Positions 8,326 to 17,660 of a stretch of 64,000 bases of DNA are shown here, one piece after another (position 1 is the stretch's first letter; the number at the start of each line of letters is the position of its first letter). Location of the stretch: NCBI RefSeq assembly GCF_003173755.1, contig NZ_CP029553.1:3806001-3870000 (forward strand), given 5' to 3'. This stretch comes from Methylobacterium terrae. GTDB taxonomy: Bacteria > Pseudomonadota > Alphaproteobacteria > Rhizobiales > Beijerinckiaceae. The notes under the pieces were generated by a model. The model was not told the DNA's origin. It searched no databases and saw only the letters and a list, made by a program, of their open reading frames with translations. The position numbers were made by a program, and so were the translations under genes.

Positions 8326-9102
8326 TCACGGGCCGGGCGGCGCCATGCCCTTCTGCGCCAGGACCGGCGCGGCGTCCGGGCCGGCGAGGTCCCGCAGGAG
8401 CCCGGATGCGGCCTCCGCCTCCGCCGCTCCCTCCGGGACCATCCCGGCATAGACGGTGTGGTTCTGGACCGCCGCCGGGATCGGGCCGACGAGGCGCGCG
8501 CCCTCGACGGCCAGCAATTCGCTCGTCTGCTGGAGCGCCAGATCCGCCTCGCCGGAGACGAGGCGCGACGCGGCGAGCCCCCCGCGCACCAGGACGAGCT
8601 TGTCCTTCATCCGGTCGGCGATGCCGAGGCGCTCGAAGAGCCGCGCGAGGTAGATCCCGCTCGAGCCGCCGGAGGCCGGATCGACCATCGCGACGGCCCG
8701 TGCCTGCAGCAGCGCCGCACGGAAGGCCTCGGGGGTGGCGATGTCCGGAACCGGCGCCCCGTCGCGGATCGCGACGCCGATCCCGACCGTCGCGAGCGGC
8801 ACCGGCTTCGCGCCGGCGAGGCGGCCCTCGCGGATCAGCGCGTCGAAGCCGCCCGGGGTGAGCACCACGAGGTCGGCCCGGACGCCGTCGCGGATCGCCT
8901 GCGCCACCGCGCCGGCGGTCTCGTTGCGCAGGACGACCTTGTGGCCGGTGCGCTGCTCGAAACGCGGCACCAGGGCCGCCGCCACGGGCTTGTAGGCGCC
9001 CGTGGTCAGCAGCGTGATCTCGGCCGCCCCTGCGGGAGCCGCGAGCCCGACCGCACCGCAGATGCACCACAGGATTCGGGATATCGGCGTGAGGCGGCGC
9101 AT
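8326..9102 (-). CDS. Periplasmic substrate-binding protein, ModA-like
   Basis: The 258-residue protein has an export signal (MRRLTPISRILWCICGAVGLA, cleavage near AGA-AE) and then a type-2 periplasmic binding fold. Segments ITLLTTGAYKPVAAALVPRFE and PASGGSSGIYLARLFERLGI resemble molybdate/ModA-like proteins. The ligand may differ from molybdate. No permease or ATPase gene is adjacent, so this looks like an orphan binding protein. It lies between the DUF2852 gene and the hopanoid operon, on the same strand but separated from hpnK by a modest gap. Confidence 0.8.
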   Translation of the reverse strand: MRRLTPISRILWCICGAVGLAAPAGAAEITLLTTGAYKPVAAALVPRFEQRTGHKVVLRNETAGAVAQAIRDGVRADLVVLTPGGFDALIREGRLAGAKPVPLATVGIGVAIRDGAPVPDIATPEAFRAALLQARAVAMVDPASGGSSGIYLARLFERLGIADRMKDKLVLVRGGLAASRLVSGEADLALQQTSELLAVEGARLVGPIPAAVQNHTVYAGMVPEGAAEAEAASGLLRDLAGPDAAPVLAQKGMAPPGP

Positions 9103-9169
9103 GCGAGGGCTCCCGGACGGCAGGCCGCGTCCCCGGCCCTGCCCTACCGGTAACCGATGCCCTCGCGCT

Positions 9170-10030
9170 TCAGCGAGCGAAATCCGAGAAGCCGCCGGTG
9201 ACGGCGCCCGATGCCGCCAGCGCCGCCCGGCTCGCCGGCGCCGTCAGGGCGGCGAGTTCCTCGGCGTAGGCGTAGCCCGGCGCCTCGCCGGGGAAGCCGC
9301 CCGTGGTCGCGGGATGCAGGTAGAGCTCGGTCAGCCCGTCCGGCAGGTGGCGCAGCAGGCCCTCGACCCGGGCGGGCGTCATGGCGCCCGACCAGGCGAG
9401 GCCGAGCACCCCGTCCGGCACGAGAAGGCCGGCCCGCGTCGCCCGGGCGCGCAGCAAGGCGGCCCAGGGCGCGGTGTCGAGGGCGAGGCCCGGTTTCGCC
9501 CCGGGCTCGGCGCGGCGCAGGGCCTCCCGCGATTCCCGCGGCACCCGGATCGCCCGCATGCCGTAGTCGCGCCCGATCGCCAGGACCATCCCGGCGATGA
9601 TCGGGTGGATGTGGAAGTGCTTGTGCGCGTTGACGTGGTCGAGGGGCAGCCCGGTCGCGCGAAAAGCCTCAAACTGCGCCCGGATCTCGGCCGCGAGCTG
9701 GCGGCGGGCCGGGGCCTTCAGCGCGAGGTCGAGGCCGAGCCGCCCCTGATCCGACCGGATCAGCCCGGCCCCGTGCACGAGGTCCGGGAGGTCGGCGGCC
9801 GGCAGGGTCGGCCAGGCCTCGACCATCACGAGGTGCAGGCCGACCCGCAGGGACGGCATCGCACGCGCCCGCGCCACCGCGTCGGCGGCTCCGGGTGCGG
9901 AGACCATCAGGCTCGCCGCCGTCAGGATGCCGTCGCGGTGGGCCCGTTCCACCGCCTCGTTGACCGGGCCTGAGAGGCCGAAATCGTCGGAGGTGACGAC
10001 GAGGCGCTTGGGCGGTCGGGCTGTGCTCAT
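9170..10030 (-). CDS. hpnK: Hopanoid biosynthesis protein HpnK (carbohydrate deacetylase family)
   Basis: The 286-residue YdjC/ChbG-type protein has the metal site pattern TSDDFGLS near the N-terminus and the pair LDHVNAHKHFHIHP in the middle, consistent with a divalent-metal deacetylase. In the hopanoid pathway HpnK removes the acetyl group from bacteriohopanetetrol-N-acetylglucosamine made by HpnI, giving the glucosamine form used by HpnJ. The ATG at 10030 (MSTARPPKRLVVTSDDFG) has GAGAG about 8 bases upstream; the frame is open further to 10108, inside the preceding hairpin. It is the last gene of hpnLMIJK. Confidence 0.92.
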   Translation of the reverse strand: MSTARPPKRLVVTSDDFGLSGPVNEAVERAHRDGILTAASLMVSAPGAADAVARARAMPSLRVGLHLVMVEAWPTLPAADLPDLVHGAGLIRSDQGRLGLDLALKAPARRQLAAEIRAQFEAFRATGLPLDHVNAHKHFHIHPIIAGMVLAIGRDYGMRAIRVPRESREALRRAEPGAKPGLALDTAPWAALLRARATRAGLLVPDGVLGLAWSGAMTPARVEGLLRHLPDGLTELYLHPATTGGFPGEAPGYAYAEELAALTAPASRAALAASGAVTGGFSDFAR

Positions 10031-10050
10031 GCTCGGTCTCTCACGCGAAA

Positions 10051-10082
10051 GAGCCTCCCCGTCCGGCCGGACGGGGAGGCTC
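10051..10082. terminator. Hairpin between hpnJ and hpnK
   Basis: Perfect 14-bp stem (GAGCCTCCCCGTCC and complement) with a GGCC loop, between the hpnJ stop and the hpnK start on the same strand. It may attenuate or process the transcript rather than end it, because hpnK belongs to the same pathway. Confidence 0.55.
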
Positions 10083-10132
10083 GCGCCCGCTTCAGGCGGG
10101 ACGATCAATCGTGGACGGTCACGCCGCCTTCG

Positions 10133-11572
10133 TCACGCCGCCTTCTTGGCGCCGCCCTGGCGCTCGCGCAGGAAGTGCCAGAACTCGACGCCCTCGCGCA
10201 GACGCCGCTTCATCATGTCGGGCGAGCGCACCATCTCGCTGACGATCGAGGCGATCTTCGGGGCGCGGAAGTAGAACTTCTTGTAGAACTCCTCCACCGA
10301 GTTGAAGATCTCGGTGTGGGACAGGTGCGGGTAGTGCAGCGGCGCGATCTGCACGCCGTTCTCGTCGACAAGCTCGGCGTTGCTAGCGTCGAGCCAGCCG
10401 TTCTCCACCGCCTGCTTGTACAGGAAGGTGCCCGGATAAGGCGCGGCGAGCGAGACCTGGATGGTGTGCGGGTTGATCCGCTTGGCGAAGGCGATCGTCT
10501 CCTGGATCGTCTCCTTGGTCTCACCCGGCAGGCCGAGGATGAAGGTGCCGTGGATGGCGATGCCGAGCTCGTGGCAGTCCTTGGTGAACCGCTCGGCCAC
10601 CTCGACCCGCATGCCCTTCTTGATGTTGTTCAGGATCTGCTGGTTGCCGGACTCGTAGCCGACGAGGAGCAGGCGCAGGCCGTTGGCCTTGAGCACCTCG
10701 AGGGTCTTGCGCGGGACGTTCGCCTTCGCGTTGCACGACCAGGTCACGCCGAGCTTGCCGAGCTCGCGGGCGATTTCTTCCGCGCGCGGCAGGTTGTCCG
10801 TGAAGGTGTCGTCGTCGAAGAAGAACTCCTTGGTCTGCGGGAACTCCTTCAGGCAGTACTTGATCTCCTCGATCACGTGCGCGACTGAGCGGGTGCGGTA
10901 GGTGTGGCCGCCGACCGTCTGCGGCCACAGGCAGAAGGTGCAGCGCGACTTGCAGCCCCGGCCGGAATAGAACGAGATGTAGGGGTGCTTCAGGTACCCG
11001 ATGAAGTACTTCTCCATCTCGAGGTCGCGCTTGTAGACCGAGGTCACGAACGGCAGCTGGTCCATGTCGGTCATGATCTCGCGGTCCTCGTTGTGGACCA
11101 CGACGCCGTCGGCGTTCCGGTACGAGAGACCCTTGATCTCGGCCATCGGCACGCCGTCGGCGACCTCCTTGACGGTGAAGTCGAACTCGTTGCGGGCGCA
11201 GAAATCGACCGCCGGGGCCTGGGCCATCGCGCCGGCGGCGTCCACCGCCACCTTGGCGCCGATCAGGCCGGCGATCAGCTTCGGGTTCTTCGCCTTCAGC
11301 GCCTCGATGGTCTTCACGTCCGACTTGAACGACGGCACCGAGGTGTGCAGCACCACGAGGTCGAAGTCGTTGGCCTGGGCCACGATCTCCGGCAGCTTGA
11401 TGTCGTGCGGCGGCGCGTCGATCAGCTTCGAGTTCGGCACCAGCGCCGCCGGCTGGGCGAGCCAGGTCGGGTACCAGAACGACTTGATCTCGCGCTTGGC
11501 CTGGTAGCGCGAGCCGGCGCCGCCGTCGAAGCCGTCGAAGGTGGGGGCCTGGAGGAAGAGGGTCCGCATCAT
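10133..11572 (-). CDS. hpnJ: Hopanoid biosynthesis radical SAM protein HpnJ
   Basis: The 479-residue protein combines an N-terminal B12-binding-like region with a radical SAM core. The [4Fe-4S] motif CKSRCTFCLWPQ is C-x3-C-x2-C. The N-terminus APTFDGFDGGAGSRYQAKRE is characteristic of HpnJ. Known work in other bacteria assigns HpnJ to conversion of bacteriohopanetetrol-glucosamine to the cyclitol ether, a ring-contracting step. Two consecutive ATGs (11572 and 11569) could serve as start. It lies between hpnI and hpnK, matching substrate order. Confidence 0.95.
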   Translation of the reverse strand: MMRTLFLQAPTFDGFDGGAGSRYQAKREIKSFWYPTWLAQPAALVPNSKLIDAPPHDIKLPEIVAQANDFDLVVLHTSVPSFKSDVKTIEALKAKNPKLIAGLIGAKVAVDAAGAMAQAPAVDFCARNEFDFTVKEVADGVPMAEIKGLSYRNADGVVVHNEDREIMTDMDQLPFVTSVYKRDLEMEKYFIGYLKHPYISFYSGRGCKSRCTFCLWPQTVGGHTYRTRSVAHVIEEIKYCLKEFPQTKEFFFDDDTFTDNLPRAEEIARELGKLGVTWSCNAKANVPRKTLEVLKANGLRLLLVGYESGNQQILNNIKKGMRVEVAERFTKDCHELGIAIHGTFILGLPGETKETIQETIAFAKRINPHTIQVSLAAPYPGTFLYKQAVENGWLDASNAELVDENGVQIAPLHYPHLSHTEIFNSVEEFYKKFYFRAPKIASIVSEMVRSPDMMKRRLREGVEFWHFLRERQGGAKKAA

Positions 11573-11646
11573 CGGGAAGATCGTCTCTTGAGGAGAGGAG
11601 GCCGCGGTCACGGCCGGTGAGGCCGCCCGGCGGCCCGATGGATGTG

Positions 11647-12831
11647 TCAAGTCGAGGGAGCGCCGGACTCGCGGGCGAGGCCGGATTCCGGGATCAGCGT
11701 GCCATCCGCAACGACCCGATAATCATGACCTTTCCAAGTCACGGCGCCGGAGACGAAGCACCAGGCGAAGCCGGCGAAGGAAAGGAGGTCGCGGATCGGC
11801 AGCAGCCAGTACGGGTGCGGCTGGAGGCCGAAGGCCCGCTCGATCCGCACGCACAGCACGATCCGGCAGGCGAGGGCCAGGGCCGCCGTGGCGAGCGTGT
11901 AGATCCCGGCATCCGGCAGCAGGGCAGCGATGAGCGCCAGCGGCACGGCGTGGGTGACGAGCGTGCCGGCGTAGCCGACGGGATCGAGGTTGCGGATGGT
12001 GCGGTTCCACCGCGTCTCGTGGCGCCAGAGGCCGGCGAGCGAGGTATCGACGCAGGTATGCCCGATGGTGAAGTTCGGGATCGCCACCATGCCGCCCTGC
12101 GCCCGCAACGCCGCCCCGAGGGCGTAGTCGTCGGCGAGGTCGTCGCGGATCGCCTCGAAGCCGCCGATCCGCGCGAGCAGCTCGGTGCGGAACGCGATGG
12201 TCGAGCCGAAGCACGGATCGGCGAGGTTCAAGGACGTGCCCATCAGGACGTTGGGCAGGAACTGCGTGTCGATGGCGAGCGCCGAGAGGTGCGCCCACAC
12301 GCCGCGATTGGCCGGCACGCCGTGATAGAGGCAGGTGACGCCGGCAACGCCCGGCTGCGCGAGTTCGGCGACGAGGCGCTCGAGGTAGTCGGGCGCCACC
12401 ACCATGTCGCTGTCGGCCAGCACCACGACCTCGTGGGCGATGAGGCCGCCCATGTTGATCAGGTTCGAGACCTTGCGGTTCGCACCGTGCTGGCGGGCGT
12501 CGACCACGAGGTCGATGCGCAAGGCGGGGTGCTCGGCCTGGAGCCGGTGCACGACGGCGATCGCCGGGTCGGTGGCGGTCTGCACCCCGAAGACCACCTG
12601 CACGGCGCCCGCATAGGCCTGGGTGCAGAAGGTGGTGAGGTTGTGGTGCAGGTTCGGCTCGTCGCCGCAGAGGGGCTTGAGCAGCGTCACCGACGGGCGG
12701 GCCGCGTCGGGGGCGAGACGCGGCGCCGGCCGCCGCGCGAGGCGCCCGGCGAGCCAGGCCGTCGTCAGTCCGTACACGCATCCGGCGAGCGCCAGGACGA
12801 TCAGCAGGGCGGAGATCCAGGTCCATTCCAT
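11647..12831 (-). CDS. hpnI: Hopanoid biosynthesis glycosyltransferase HpnI
   Basis: This 394-residue membrane glycosyltransferase has an N-terminal helix (residues 4-28), a GT2-type catalytic domain with SVTLLKPLCGDEPNL, the metal-binding LADSDMVV, and the acceptor-side RHETRWNRTIR (an R-x-x-R-W form of the QxxRW motif). C-terminal membrane helices follow. It resembles ceramide glucosyltransferases and is the HpnI that adds N-acetylglucosamine to bacteriohopanetetrol. It sits between hpnM and hpnJ on the same strand. Confidence 0.94.
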   Translation of the reverse strand: MEWTWISALLIVLALAGCVYGLTTAWLAGRLARRPAPRLAPDAARPSVTLLKPLCGDEPNLHHNLTTFCTQAYAGAVQVVFGVQTATDPAIAVVHRLQAEHPALRIDLVVDARQHGANRKVSNLINMGGLIAHEVVVLADSDMVVAPDYLERLVAELAQPGVAGVTCLYHGVPANRGVWAHLSALAIDTQFLPNVLMGTSLNLADPCFGSTIAFRTELLARIGGFEAIRDDLADDYALGAALRAQGGMVAIPNFTIGHTCVDTSLAGLWRHETRWNRTIRNLDPVGYAGTLVTHAVPLALIAALLPDAGIYTLATAALALACRIVLCVRIERAFGLQPHPYWLLPIRDLLSFAGFAWCFVSGAVTWKGHDYRVVADGTLIPESGLARESGAPST

Positions 12832-12966
12832 GGCGAGGCGGCGATCCCTGGGAGGAAGTTGGCCGCGCGGGGCGCACGGCGGATTGTCTTGTGGCGGTCG
12901 AGGATGGGGTCGTCGTCGGCCGCCGGTCCGGCGAGGGACCGGCGACGCGAGCGTTGGCGCTCAGCC

Positions 12967-13617
12967 TCAGGGCTTGGCCGGCACCTTCGGGGCCGGCGCC
13001 GCCAGCATCGTCTCGGTCGACTTCTTCAGGTGGGCGAGCAGGGCATCGGCTCCGCCCTCCTGCAGCGGCTCGGAGAAGCCGGTGCGCAGGGTGCCGGCCT
13101 CGCTCACCGTGCCCTGGAGGTAGACGTCGGTGATGCGGTTGTCGGCGTTCAGCACGTAGTCGACCGGGGAGGTGTCGCCGCTGCCGTCGGTCACCGTGAC
13201 GTGCACGATGCGGCCGGCCCCGCGGGCCTCGCTCTTCGGGTCGATGGCGAACTTGCTGCCGGCCGCGGCGCTGAGCCGGGTGGCGTAGGTCGCGGTCAGG
13301 TAGGGCCCGAAGGCGGCGATCAGCGCCTGCTGCTTCTCGGCCGGGATGTCCTTCCAGCGGGTGCCGATCCCGAGGCGCAGCATCGCCGGCAGGTCGAAGT
13401 TCTGCTGCATCGGGCCCGACAGGATCTCGGCGCGGGCGCGCACGTCGCCGGCCTTCAGCGCCGCCTCGAGGGCGTCGGTCATGCGCCGCACGGTGGCAAC
13501 CGCCGGGTCGCCCTCACCGGTGGCAGGGGCGGCGGGGCCTTGAGCCAGCGCCGGCAGCGAGGCCAGGCCGAGGCCGGCGATCGTCAGGCTGCGCAGGATG
13601 TCGCGTCGGGTCTGCAC
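12967..13617 (-). CDS. hpnM: Hopanoid-associated periplasmic protein HpnM (MlaC/Ttg2D family)
   Basis: The 216-residue exported protein starts with a twin-arginine-like signal (TRRDILRSLTIAGLGLASLPALAQ split by the RR pair) followed by the MlaC fold, including LRLGIGTRWKDIPAEKQQ and DVYLQGTVSEAG. MlaC-type proteins carry lipids across the periplasm, so HpnM is expected to help move hopanoids to the outer membrane. The start is GTG at 13617, with GGAG 9 bases upstream inside the end of hpnL; only four bases separate the two genes, so they are translationally linked. Confidence 0.9.
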   Translation of the reverse strand: MQTRRDILRSLTIAGLGLASLPALAQGPAAPATGEGDPAVATVRRMTDALEAALKAGDVRARAEILSGPMQQNFDLPAMLRLGIGTRWKDIPAEKQQALIAAFGPYLTATYATRLSAAAGSKFAIDPKSEARGAGRIVHVTVTDGSGDTSPVDYVLNADNRITDVYLQGTVSEAGTLRTGFSEPLQEGGADALLAHLKKSTETMLAAPAPKVPAKP

Positions 13618-13621
13618 CAGG

Positions 13622-14698
13622 TCATTCTCCTTTGCCGTCGACGGGCGCCGCGGCGTAGCCGAAGGCGGGCCCGTGAGCCCGGCGTGGGCGGACATACGCC
13701 CGCAGGGTCGCGCCGAGGCCGGCCGCCGGATTGCGGCCCTGCTCGGCGTTGGTGTCTTCCATCGCGTGCCAGAGCATCAGGCTCGGCAGCCCGACCGCGA
13801 GGTCGGCCAGGCGCTTGATGAGCGACAGGGCGAGCGCCGCCTCGGCCGGGATGCCGAACACGGCGCAGAGCGCGATCAGGCCGCCCTCCTGGGCGCCCAG
13901 CGCGCCCGGCACCGCGAAGGCGGCGCCGCGCACGGCCTGGGCCAGGCTCTCGATCACGATCGCTTCGAGGAAGCCGACCTCGTAGCCCATGAAGCGCAGC
14001 GCGATCCAGACCTCGAGCGTGCCGATGATCCAGCCGAACAGGTGCGTGCCGATGGCGGTGAGAATGCGGCCGCGGGCGGCGTAGAGGCCGCGCAGGCGCT
14101 CGAACAGCACGTCGACCGCGCCGAAGATCCGCCACTCGCGCCCGCCGGCGAAGCGGTTGATCGCGGCCTGGAGCAGGCTCTGCCCGAAGCGGCGCTGCAC
14201 CAGGTAGAACGCCACGAGGGCCGGCGCCGCCACGACGAGGCCGAGACCCACGTAGTGCACGATCGGCCCGTCGCCGCCGAGCGCCACCAGGATGCCGAGG
14301 CCGGCCACCGTGAACAGGAACTGGGTGAGGGCCTGGACCATCAGGTCGACGAGGGTGGTGGCCCCCGACAGGGCGCCCGGCACCTTGTGCAGGGTGAGAA
14401 GGCGCGCGCCGATCAGGTCGCCGCCGACCTGCGCCACGGGCAGCAGCGTGTTGACGCCCTCGCGCACGAAGCGCACGCTGACGCAGTCGCGCAGCAGCGG
14501 CCTCTCGCCGCGGGGAAACACCACCCACCAGCCGAGGCCCGCCCAGGCCACGGCGACGAAGCGCGCGACCACGACCAGCACGGCGCCCCAGCCGGACGCC
14601 CACAGGGCCGCCGCGACCGCCTCCGGCCCCGAGGAGACGAACAGGCCGATCACGGTGCACAGGCCGGCGATCAGGCCCAGTGTCGTCAGTCGCTTCAT
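13622..14698 (-). CDS. hpnL: Hopanoid-associated membrane protein HpnL
   Basis: The 358-residue protein has about eight hydrophobic segments and the lysylphosphatidylglycerol synthase-like transmembrane fold (DUF2062/LPG synthase TM family). Conserved stretches are LLPVAQVGGDLIGARLL and GALGAQEGGLIALCAVFGIP. HpnL is found in hopanoid clusters and is thought to assist transport or flipping. The ATG at 14698 opens the hpnLMIJK unit. The 288-base divergent region upstream separates it from the amidinotransferase gene and should hold both promoters. Confidence 0.9.
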   Translation of the reverse strand: MKRLTTLGLIAGLCTVIGLFVSSGPEAVAAALWASGWGAVLVVVARFVAVAWAGLGWWVVFPRGERPLLRDCVSVRFVREGVNTLLPVAQVGGDLIGARLLTLHKVPGALSGATTLVDLMVQALTQFLFTVAGLGILVALGGDGPIVHYVGLGLVVAAPALVAFYLVQRRFGQSLLQAAINRFAGGREWRIFGAVDVLFERLRGLYAARGRILTAIGTHLFGWIIGTLEVWIALRFMGYEVGFLEAIVIESLAQAVRGAAFAVPGALGAQEGGLIALCAVFGIPAEAALALSLIKRLADLAVGLPSLMLWHAMEDTNAEQGRNPAAGLGATLRAYVRPRRAHGPAFGYAAAPVDGKGE

Positions 14699-14986
14699 GA
14701 CCCTCTTTCTGTCGCAGCGGCGGCGGCCCCGGGGGCGCGCCATTCCGGCAACGGAGTCGAAACAAAGCAGCGCCGTTGCATCCCGGCACGTTGCAGCTTT
14801 GATGGGCCCTGTCTATCACCGCCCGGACACACTGCCGGTGAAACCGGCATGTTCCACCGGCCCGGCGAGGCCGCCCAAGCATCGCCGCAAGCTTATGTTA
14901 TGGCGTAGCTTCCTCCCCCGACGGCACCGACCGGCGGGGCTTCCGGAATCGCGTGAGAGAAGGCCGCTCGCAACGGCCGTCAAGGG

Positions 14987-16183
14987 ATGGACGAGGCAAT
15001 GGATCGGGAGACGACCTTCGAGGCCGAGCGCGGCGCGCTCGACGATGCGACCGCGCACGACCTGACCTCCTTCCAGGGTGAGGGCGCGGGCCGGGCGCCG
15101 GCGCCGCAATCCCCGGTCATGGCCTGGAACGAGTGGGATCCCCTCGAGGAGGTGATCGTCGGCTCGCTCGACGGGGCGACGATCCCGACCCATCACCTGA
15201 CGGTGATCTTCAACCTGCCGCGGGCCGCCCAACCGTTCTACCGGCTCGCCTCCGGCTGGAAATATCCCGGCTTCATGAAGAAGCTGGCCCAGCAGGAGCT
15301 GGACGGCTTCATCAAGATCCTGGCCGGCGAAGGCGTGAAGATCCGCCGTCCCGATTCGGTCGACTTCTCGAAGAAGTTCAAGGCGCCGCGCTGGTCCTCG
15401 CGCGGCTTCTGCGTCGCCTGCCCGCGCGACCCGTACCTGGTGATCGGCGACGAGATCATCGAGAGCCCGATGTGCTGGCGCTCGCGCTACTTCGAGGGCG
15501 ACGCCTACCGCTCGCTGTTCAAGGAGTATTTCCGGGCCGGCGCGCGCTGGACCTCGGCGCCGCGGCCGCAGCTCACCGACGAGCTCTACAACTACGACTA
15601 CCGGGTGCCGAACCTGAAGGCCGGCGAGCCGATGCAGTTCACGGTCAACGAGTTCGAGCCGGTCTTCGACGCGGCCGACTTCGTGCGCTGCGGCCGCGAC
15701 CTGTTCGTCACCCGCTCGAACGTCACGAACCTGATGGGCATCGAGTGGCTGCGCCGCCACCTCGGGCCGGGCTTCCGCATCCACGAGATCGAGAGCCGCT
15801 GCCCGCAGCCGATGCACATCGATTCGTCGTTCATGCCGCTCGCCCCCGGCAAGGTGCTGGTCAACCCCGACTACATAGACGTCGAGAAGCTGCCGGCAGT
15901 GCTCAAGAAGTGGGACGTGCTGATCGCGCCCCGCCCCGACCCCGTCGAGGGCTTCATGAGCAAAATCTCGATGTGCTCGCCCTGGACCTCGATCAACGTG
16001 CTCGCCATCGACGAGAAGAAGATCGTGGTCGACGCGAGCCAGCCGACGCTGATCAAGGCGCTCAAGGATTGGGGCTTCGACCCGATCCCGACGCCGTTCC
16101 TGTCCTACGGCCCGTTCGGCGGCTCGTTCCACTGCGCGACGCTCGACGTGCGCCGGCGCGGCCCGCTGAAGTCGTACTTCTAG
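14987..16183 (+). CDS. Glycine amidinotransferase-like protein
   Basis: The 398-residue protein matches the L-arginine:glycine/inosamine amidinotransferase family over its length. The catalytic triad is visible as Asp in FDAADFVRCGRD, His in QPMHIDSSF, and Cys in GGSFHCATLD. Family members move the amidino group from arginine to an amine through a covalent Cys intermediate. No creatine or streptomycin pathway genes are near. The gene is divergent from hpnL, so a hopanoid amine is an attractive acceptor: Methylobacterium has been reported to make guanidine-substituted bacteriohopanetetrol cyclitol ether. That substrate is my inference. ATG at 14987 or the second ATG at 14999 could start the protein. 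Confidence 0.88.
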   Translation: MDEAMDRETTFEAERGALDDATAHDLTSFQGEGAGRAPAPQSPVMAWNEWDPLEEVIVGSLDGATIPTHHLTVIFNLPRAAQPFYRLASGWKYPGFMKKLAQQELDGFIKILAGEGVKIRRPDSVDFSKKFKAPRWSSRGFCVACPRDPYLVIGDEIIESPMCWRSRYFEGDAYRSLFKEYFRAGARWTSAPRPQLTDELYNYDYRVPNLKAGEPMQFTVNEFEPVFDAADFVRCGRDLFVTRSNVTNLMGIEWLRRHLGPGFRIHEIESRCPQPMHIDSSFMPLAPGKVLVNPDYIDVEKLPAVLKKWDVLIAPRPDPVEGFMSKISMCSPWTSINVLAIDEKKIVVDASQPTLIKALKDWGFDPIPTPFLSYGPFGGSFHCATLDVRRRGPLKSYF

Positions 16184-16344: not shown

Positions 16345-17013
16345 TCACTCCCCCCAGCGCAACGCCGCCGCCGCCGCCAGCGTGCCGACCACGCCCGCGG
16401 CGAGGCTCAGCGCGCCGAGGATCGCGAGCGGCGTCGTGAACGGCACCGTGCCGCTCAAGGCCGCCTCCGCCGCCGAGACGCCGAAGATCAGGGTCGGCAC
16501 CATCAGGGGCAGCACCACCACCGCGAGGATCAGGCCGCCGCGGCGGATCGAGGCGGTGAGTGCCGCGCCGACGGCGCCGATGAAGGTCAGCGCCGGGGTG
16601 CCGACGAGGAGCGTCAGGCCCGTCGCCGCCATGCCGGTCGGGCTGAGCGCCACGAGGAGCCCGAACAAGGGCGTCGCCAGTGCCAGCGGCAGGCCGGTGG
16701 TGAGCCAGTGCGCCGTGACCTTGGCGAGCACCAGGAGTTCCAGCGGCGCCGGCGCACCCGACAGCAGGTCGAGGGAGCCGTCCTCCTCGTCGGCCTGGAA
16801 CAGCCGGTCGAGGCCGATGAGCGTCGCCAGCACCGCGGCGATCCACAGGATGCCGGGGCCGACCCGCGCGAGCAGGTTCAGGTCGGGCCCGAGGCCGAAC
16901 GGCACCAGGGCGACGATCATCAGGAAGAACACCAGGGACAGGGCCCCCGAGCCGCCGATGCGGCCGGCGAGCCGCAGGTCGCGGGCGACCACCGCCAGGA
17001 AGGCGCGCCCCAT
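16345..17013 (-). CDS. ccmB: Heme exporter protein CcmB
   Basis: The 222-residue protein has six hydrophobic segments. It has the CcmB signature near the N-terminus (RDLRLAGRIGGSGALSLVFF) and the loop LDRLFQADEEDGSLDLL. It is the membrane subunit of the CcmAB ABC transporter, which acts with CcmC and CcmD to release heme-loaded CcmE for c-type cytochrome assembly. Its ATG overlaps the ccmA stop by one base (TGATG), so translation is coupled. The rest of the system (ccmCDG) is 12 kb away. Confidence 0.95.
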   Translation of the reverse strand: MGRAFLAVVARDLRLAGRIGGSGALSLVFFLMIVALVPFGLGPDLNLLARVGPGILWIAAVLATLIGLDRLFQADEEDGSLDLLSGAPAPLELLVLAKVTAHWLTTGLPLALATPLFGLLVALSPTGMAATGLTLLVGTPALTFIGAVGAALTASIRRGGLILAVVVLPLMVPTLIFGVSAAEAALSGTVPFTTPLAILGALSLAAGVVGTLAAAAALRWGE

Positions 17014-17660
17014 CAGACGGTCTCCGCGAAGGGATCGGCCGACTGCTCGACCCGGCCGGCGCGGAAGGCTTCGACGGAGAGTTCGCGTGCAGTCTCAAGG
17101 CCGAGCGCCTGGTGGGTGGCGGCGATGACGAGGCCGCCTCCCGCAAGATGCGCCCGCATCAGCCCGGCGAGCGCGCCCTGCGAGGCGACGTCGAGGGCGG
17201 CGGTCGGCTCGTCGAGGAGCCAGAGCGGCCGGCGGCAGACGAGGAGCCGGGCGAGCGCCACCCGCCGGCGCTGGCCGGCCGAGAGGTAGGCCACCGGCAG
17301 CCCCGCCGCGTGGGCGAGGCCGAGGCGCGCCAGCGCCTCGCGGGGGCTGAGGTCGGCGTCGCCCAGGAGATCGCGGGCGAAGGCGAGGTTCTCCTCCGCG
17401 GTGAGCGCGCCCTTCAGGCCGTCGCGGTGGCCGACGACGTGGAGGCATTCGGGGATCGTGCGCTCCCCTACCCCCTCGGCCACGAGCCGCCCGGCCTCCG
17501 GCCGCAGCCGCCCGGCGAGGATGGCGAGCAGCGACGACTTGCCGGCGCCGTTGCGGCCGGTCACGGTCAGCGCCTCGCCGGCCCCCAGGGTGAAGGACAG
17601 GCCGGCGAAGACGCGGCGGCCGGAGCGCCGGCAGGCGAGATCCTCGGCGATCAGGCGCAC
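17013..17660 (-). CDS. ccmA: Heme exporter ATP-binding protein CcmA
   Basis: This 215-residue ABC ATPase has Walker [10 protein letters not shown] at about residue 36, signature [15 protein letters not shown] and Walker [14 protein letters not shown]. Length and the compact form fit CcmA, and the overlapping ccmB confirms it. ATP hydrolysis drives release of holo-CcmE from CcmC during cytochrome c maturation, needed here for XoxG. Confidence 0.95.

Follow-up and report, generated by a model that had tools for sequence, protein, structure and literature searches.

A 64,000-nucleotide stretch of the Methylobacterium terrae genome (contig NZ_CP029553.1, positions 3,806,001 to 3,870,000; hereafter the window) encodes an AGAT-type amidinotransferase, designated as AMT, beside the hopanoid genes hpnL, hpnM, hpnI, hpnJ, and hpnK. 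Judged from sequence comparison and gene context, AMT is very probably the guanidinylating enzyme of the bacteriohopanetetrol (BHT) glucosamine/cyclitol-ether branch, an accessory step of hopanoid tailoring. The enzymes that make the acceptor are assigned and the product is known, and AMT thus fits the missing step.

The sequence-only reading of this DNA had described hpnL-M-I-J-K on one strand and, divergent from hpnL, a full-length amidinotransferase with an Asp/His/Cys triad. Both descriptions hold: the five genes lie on the minus strand in that order, and AMT lies on the plus strand with the triad in place. HpnI, HpnJ, and HpnK are clustered and each scores above its curated NCBIfam cut-off, as expected of a hopanoid cyclitol-ether cluster. 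The HpnM model TIGR03481 gave 101.8 bits for the window hpnM, under its curated cut-off of 160.1. One AMT copy is present in the 6.16-Mb one-contig genome that contains the window. The features are as follows, in window positions.

14987..16183, + strand: AMT, AGAT-type amidinotransferase of 398 aa, with proposed amidino transfer to amino-hopanoid head groups (sequence comparison)
15668..15670, + strand: codon of Asp228 (AGAT Asp254, triad), conserved in 146/146 hpn-type and 133/133 Streptomyces-type rows
15815..15817, + strand: codon of His277 (AGAT His303, triad), conserved in 146/146 hpn-type and 132/133 Streptomyces-type rows
16133..16135, + strand: codon of Cys383 (AGAT Cys407, nucleophile), conserved in 146/146 hpn-type and 133/133 Streptomyces-type rows
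9170..10108, - strand: hpnK, deacetylase yielding BHT glucosamine (NCBIfam TIGR03473, 347 bits; cut-off 232.6)
10133..11650, - strand: hpnJ, radical S-adenosylmethionine (SAM) enzyme yielding BHT cyclitol ether (NCBIfam TIGR03471, 812 bits; cut-off 577.6)
11647..12831, - strand: hpnI, BHT N-acetylglucosamine transferase (NCBIfam TIGR03472, 434 bits; cut-off 310)
12967..13695, - strand: hpnM, MlaC-type protein (Pfam MlaC, 92.7 against a cut-off of 26; TIGR03481 below cut-off)
13622..14743, - strand: hpnL, flippase-like membrane protein (NCBIfam TIGR03476, 329 bits; cut-off 195.65; tree)
14744..14986: intergenic stretch that separates hpnL from AMT, presumably a promoter region serving both directions (position only)
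8326..9102: ModA-like gene flanking the cluster, below the modA cut-off
16345..17660: ccmB/ccmA, cytochrome-maturation genes flanking the cluster on the AMT side

The AMT protein is homologous over its full length (from residues ~20-43 to 397-398) to amidinotransferases of solved structure, and has the family fold of the AGAT type. The best matches are SxtG (E-value 2e-131), human AGAT (5e-103), HsvA (1.8e-93), and StrB1 (2.7e-72). Residues D254, H303, and C407 of AGAT align with D228, H277, and C383 of AMT, and their catalytic roles are presumably those described for AGAT. Enzymes of the amidinotransferase family take the amidino group of L-arginine on the Cys residue. The closest named relatives of AMT are from Methylobacterium species. 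A Pfam scan of AMT revealed no family at E 1e-3. The arginine deiminase (ADI) model PF02274 was rejected as a means of finding AMT: it has no match at 1e-3 anywhere in the genome of the window. A Rhizonema AMT copy scored 15.9 bits with it, under the cut-off of 22.8. This model is not deemed defining for AGAT.

AMT lacks residues expected of a glycine amidinotransferase in the narrow sense. The positions of AGAT N300, Y164, S354, and W408, which we take to lie at the substrate site, are occupied by Q274, C142, C330, and A384; these residues and the hopanoid gene context distinguish AMT from human AGAT (L-arginine:glycine amidinotransferase, 1jdw/4jdw). Among the four, the N300 position alone also differs from the sister type described below (Q versus mostly N or T). 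The structure entry of SxtG (6u1r) is titled for saxitoxin biosynthesis, whereas AMT is surrounded in the window by genes for hopanoids and cytochrome maturation. StrB1, the inosamine-phosphate amidinotransferase (1bwd), is a solved relative that, to judge from its entry name, amidinates an aminocyclitol, which favors the reading proposed here; it has lower identity to AMT and a soluble phosphorylated acceptor, while the acceptor proposed for AMT is a membrane lipid head group.

The lipid side of the argument was already part of the sequence-only reading, which stated that Methylobacterium is reported to contain a guanidine-substituted cyclitol ether, that HpnI, HpnK, and HpnJ yield BHT glucosamine and then the amino-cyclitol ether, and that no enzyme is known to be assigned to the guanidine step. 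The literature passages covered, all from open-licence PMC papers, are in line with this. In Methylobacterium extorquens, adenosylhopane is converted to BHT cyclitol ether as well as to the derivative carrying guanidine (PMC5358736). Methylotrophs were the first source of this derivative, the guanidine-substituted BHT cyclitol ether, with a 1985 paper on Methylobacterium organophilum cited, and it is reported from methylotrophs, Zymomonas mobilis, Geobacter sulfurreducens, a Gloeocapsa enrichment, and Dolichospermum/Aphanizomenon (PMC5642901). Its use in sediments as a marker of source organisms has been suggested cautiously. Guanidine-substituted BHT glucosamine is reported for Dolichospermum BIR53 and, as unpublished data, for a Nostoc (PMC5642901). 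The HpnI-K-J route is treated in a 2025 study that quantified 63 structures in 54 alphaproteobacterial cultures, including four of Methylobacterium/Methylorubrum and Enterovirga rhinocerotis (PMC12583986). No gene for the guanidine-substituted BHT cyclitol ether is named in the passages covered, and no open-licence PMC paper was found that combines hopanoid with amidinotransferase, or Methylobacterium extorquens with amidinotransferase. In the covered passages of PMC3712917 (Zymomonas) and PMC12271159 (cyanobacteria), guanidine occurs as a reagent or within a reference.

The following route can be proposed. HpnI transfers N-acetylglucosamine onto BHT, HpnK deacetylates the product to BHT glucosamine, and HpnJ converts this to the amino-cyclitol ether (PMC12583986). 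AMT would take the amidino group of L-arginine onto Cys383 and pass it on. The receiving group would be the primary amine of BHT cyclitol ether, probably that of BHT glucosamine too, and the products would be the published guanidine-substituted hopanoids. HpnI, HpnK, and HpnJ adjoin AMT and would make its acceptor, while AMT itself bears no hpn letter in the passages covered and would be an accessory step. We infer the arginine donor, the amino-hopanoid acceptor and product, the order relative to HpnJ, the cell location, and the role of the linked HpnL.

Within the genus the linkage is complete. In a sample of 69 genomes, AMT (86-100% identity) and HpnJ above cut-off are both present in 69/69, and in all of them the two genes share a contig and run divergently, their matches being 2837-3475 bases apart. 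The expectation that the family tracks with hpnJ across Methylobacterium is thus borne out. These genomes are relatives, and so their linkage indicates conservation rather than independence. All 40 named loci of the Methylobacterium/Methylorubrum type have HpnI, HpnJ, and HpnL beside AMT, and in these loci AMT (88-98% to the window) and HpnJ (89-98%) are more conserved than HpnI, HpnM, and HpnL. In Methylobacterium oxalidis (L065:9977-12048), hpnK is located just downstream of AMT on the same strand, not beyond hpnJ.

Linkage beyond the genus was analyzed with a genome-contig scan, in which the best 80 of 357 confirmed loci comprised 40 of the Methylobacterium type, 20 from Streptomyces, and 20 other named loci. 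A metagenome-assembled genome (MAG), DS2.3.33 (L056), is labelled Methylobacterium and was counted among the 20 others. The window hpn proteins were used as queries against the fetched flanks at E 1e-5. An hpnI, J, K, L, or M gene was found in the flank of 14 of the 20 other AMT-group loci, cyanobacteria included; with two pairs of near-duplicates (L103/L104 and L106/L107) each counted once, 12 of 18 are linked. The linked loci are from Enterovirga (two), Raskinella together with a MAG whose AMT is almost identical, a Hyphomicrobiaceae MAG, MAG DS2.3.33, Rhizonema (two), Iningainema, Paramagnetospirillum, Roseococcus, an Acetobacteraceae MAG, Burkholderia sp. H160, and a Rokubacteria MAG. The association seen in one window therefore extends to independent lineages, as expected of a maker of guanidino-hopanoids.

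The gene orders differ among these loci. AMT is divergent from hpnL in Enterovirga aerilata, Raskinella, the Hyphomicrobiaceae MAG, and MAG DS2.3.33; other open reading frames intervene between the two in Enterovirga rhinocerotis. HpnL is followed by AMT in Paramagnetospirillum, Roseococcus, the Acetobacteraceae MAG, Burkholderia H160, and the Rokubacteria MAG. Rhizonema has hpnJ, hpnK, a ferritin-like gene, hpnI, and AMT on one strand, with a second hpnK on the opposite strand. In Iningainema, AMT directly follows hpnI; hpnK is nearby, and hpnJ is carried by a separate contig. Against the NCBIfam cut-offs, HpnJ and HpnK of Rhizonema score above, HpnI of the two cyanobacteria tested just under (304.1 and 295.8 versus 310), and HpnL above in three of four tested, the Rokubacteria protein having 138.2 versus 195.65. 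That the linkage reappears outside the genus with the genes arranged differently speaks against an inherited accident, and a chance neighborhood of AMT and hpn genes was rejected on this ground.

The same recurrence, seen in cyanobacteria, Alphaproteobacteria, and a Burkholderia, bears on the possibility that AMT makes a soluble guanidino compound, such as guanidinoacetate or homoarginine, and lies near hpn genes by chance or through shared regulation. Such a product would suit the solved relatives SxtG, AGAT, HsvA, and StrB1, which, going by their entry names, act on soluble amines, and some AMT loci are unlinked to hpn genes. The differing gene orders, the unlinked sister subfamily, and the departures from AGAT at the positions of N300, Y164, S354, and W408 make this explanation improbable.

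The sister subfamily is the Streptomyces/Methylocystis type (G430 and 20 Streptomyces loci), which is 59-65% identical to AMT and has the triad in common. It forms a separate clade with support of 100/100 in a 50-row AMT tree. None of the 20 Streptomyces loci is linked to hpnI-M genes, nor is G430, and HpnJ was found in none of the seven sister-type genomes searched (0/6 Streptomyces, and G430). HpnJ was likewise not found in the genome G534. The hpn type and the Streptomyces type have different residues, at >85% on each side, at 17 positions, several of them near active-site loops, and these positions may set the choice of acceptor.

The association was also analyzed at the level of whole genomes. 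Beyond the Methylobacterium type, the HpnJ search was run for 18 of the 20 named loci and covered 17 genomes, and HpnJ exceeded its cut-off in 13 of them. HpnJ was above cut-off in 17/349 Pseudomonadota genomes, six of them of the Methylobacterium genus. The contrast between 13/17 AMT-group genomes and 11/343 non-Methylobacterium Pseudomonadota gives a Fisher p of 2e-14, which is only a guide because relatedness and the differing phyla are ignored. AMT at E 1e-50 is absent from all 11 HpnJ genomes outside Methylobacterium in this 349-genome sample; AMT would thus be an accessory step, and HpnJ is independent of it. In a sample of 204 genomes from a cyanobacterial order, the AMT group (at least 74% to the AMT of Iningainema) was found in five, Iningainema included, and HpnJ above cut-off in 25 (Fisher p 0.014 for the association, relatedness ignored). 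The presence of HpnJ was rejected as a predictor of AMT, since the 11/11 Pseudomonadota and 22/25 of the cyanobacterial-order HpnJ genomes are without the AMT group.

The more distant amidinotransferases examined do not carry the link. In an order sample, 28/199 genomes match AMT at E 1e-3, including four of the genus and, at 76%, G052 and G123; the remaining best matches are 25-40% identical or short. Among ten stretches examined, hpn genes were found only at G052 and G123. The best 120 listed relatives of the cyanobacterial-type AMT include Chlorogloeopsis, Rhizonema, Prochloraceae, Xenococcaceae, and Nitrospirota. Among the reported producers outside Methylobacterium, Gloeocapsa is represented by a MAG of that label (L115), which carries AMT.

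The amino-cyclitol had been proposed as the amidino acceptor in the sequence-only reading. The hpn linkage and the co-occurrence support this, with the refinement that BHT glucosamine may also serve, given the missing HpnJ match in MAG DS2.3.33, the position of hpnK right behind AMT in M. oxalidis, and the published guanidine-substituted form of BHT glucosamine (PMC5642901). These observations also suit a different order of steps, in which BHT glucosamine is the acceptor and AMT precedes HpnJ. The guanidino cyclitol ether would then come from HpnJ acting on the guanidinylated sugar or from a relaxed second activity of AMT. MAG DS2.3.33 has AMT with hpnK, hpnI, hpnM, and hpnL; Iningainema has AMT next to hpnI and hpnJ elsewhere; and the hpnK match of M. 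oxalidis starts ~60 bp past AMT in the same orientation. However, the form reported for Methylobacterium is the guanidino cyclitol ether, and HpnJ accompanies AMT in the 13/17 and 69/69 genomes above, so that this order is considered rather unlikely. A different acceptor in the pathway, such as 35-aminobacteriohopanetriol, the product of HpnO, is likewise a primary amine on a hopanoid. It is a very improbable acceptor for AMT: the linked genes are hpnI, J, K, L, and M, of which hpnI, J, and K make the glucosamine/cyclitol branch, and no guanidino-aminotriol appears in the literature passages covered.

The assignment of AMT as the probable guanidinylating enzyme draws on the gene, family, fold, triad, and recurrent linkage; several observations weigh against it. 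HpnJ was not found in four of the 17 AMT-group genomes (L056, L087, L112, and L115, the last with a genome of only 1.8 Mb), which are MAG DS2.3.33, Crenalkalicoccus, an Acidobacteriota MAG, and the Gloeocapsa MAG, and it is present in only three of the five AMT-group genomes of the cyanobacterial order. Six of the 20 other loci (L055, L087, L108, L112, L115, and L123) show no hpnI-M match in the fetched flank, and the one to three neighbors scanned at each of them and at the AMT-group loci L159, L161, and L169 include no hpn gene. A close AMT is present in only 2/257 genomes of the phylum of a Syntrophobacteraceae MAG, this MAG included. The names of the reported producers Geobacter, Zymomonas, Dolichospermum, Aphanizomenon, and Nostoc do not occur among the best 120 listed relatives, most of which are nameless. 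Support along the backbone of the AMT tree is weak, with forks mostly unstarred, and the hpn-type group may therefore be a grade rather than a clade. Finally, the string "guanid" does not occur in the main text of PMC12583986, which means that a guanidino product was absent, unsought, or missed there.

The window hpnL belongs to an HpnL clade that, within the set compared, is restricted to genomes with AMT. This clade (support 100/99) contains 14 of the 16 AMT-adjacent HpnL copies and has 18 rows in total: these 14, three second copies of Methylobacterium, and one from an AMT genome. None of the 16 HpnL proteins from HpnJ genomes without AMT falls inside it. Ten other HpnL copies come from AMT genomes, seven outside the clade and three (Methylobacterium) inside; the second copies of Paramagnetospirillum and of Roseococcus are outside. 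The Rokubacteria HpnL is also outside the clade. The AMT-adjacent row of the Acetobacteraceae MAG G592 is on a branch of 6 and looks mistranslated, and in another tree it is inside the AMT clade; L203 gave no match for the tree set. The pattern hints that AMT and this HpnL clade travel together, in a sample that is small and partly follows taxonomy. The mere presence of HpnL was rejected as a marker of AMT, since HpnL also occurs in HpnJ genomes without AMT and the clade alone tracks AMT. The second HpnL copy in the genome of the window (G000:C1:165207-166169, L208) is far from the hpn cluster and groups in the tree with the AMT-adjacent HpnL of Roseococcus.

It is conceivable, though still on the doubtful side, that AMT and a dedicated HpnL-type flippase paralogue constitute a portable module for guanidinylation and handling, which makes the head group a strongly basic cation. 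This module would have passed among Alphaproteobacteria and a Burkholderia, while AMT alone would have joined hpnI-J-K in cyanobacteria. If so, AMT would be an amidinotransferase with a membrane lipid as acceptor.

The bacterial membrane lipid to which AMT would add a guanidine group serves as a molecular fossil. If AMT is the maker of the guanidino-hopanoid, the gene would be a marker with which genomes and metagenomes can be screened for producers, helping to settle the source groups of the biomarker. It would also open genetics on the role of guanidino-hopanoids in the membrane, and the known acceptors of the family, which are soluble amines, would probably come to include a lipid head group.

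Some individual loci show further features. MAG DS2.3.33 (L056:2889-8982) carries hpnK, hpnI, an MlaA-type gene, hpnM, hpnL, and AMT, with no HpnJ found in the genome, and offers a natural experiment on whether BHT glucosamine is an acceptor. Two tandem AMT copies follow hpnI in Rhizonema sp. NSF051 (L107:7260-8312 and 8441-9493). Burkholderia sp. H160 encodes, upstream of HpnL and AMT, a radical SAM protein (L069:7526-8776) with no match to any HpnJ model at E 1e-10. The cyanobacterial genome G659 (L161:11791-12990) has argininosuccinate synthase, which helps make arginine, ~0.9 kb from AMT. A protein with apparent ferritin-like EEASH...DEARH motifs is encoded near cyanobacterial AMT (L106:4000-4872, P0241; L115:2055-2879; L160:7539-8366). 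In Rhizonema its gene stands between hpnK and hpnI; in the Gloeocapsa MAG and in G660 it comes immediately after AMT. The protein matches no Pfam family and nothing in the PDB at an E-value better than 0.6, and may be another hopanoid-tailoring enzyme of cyanobacteria.

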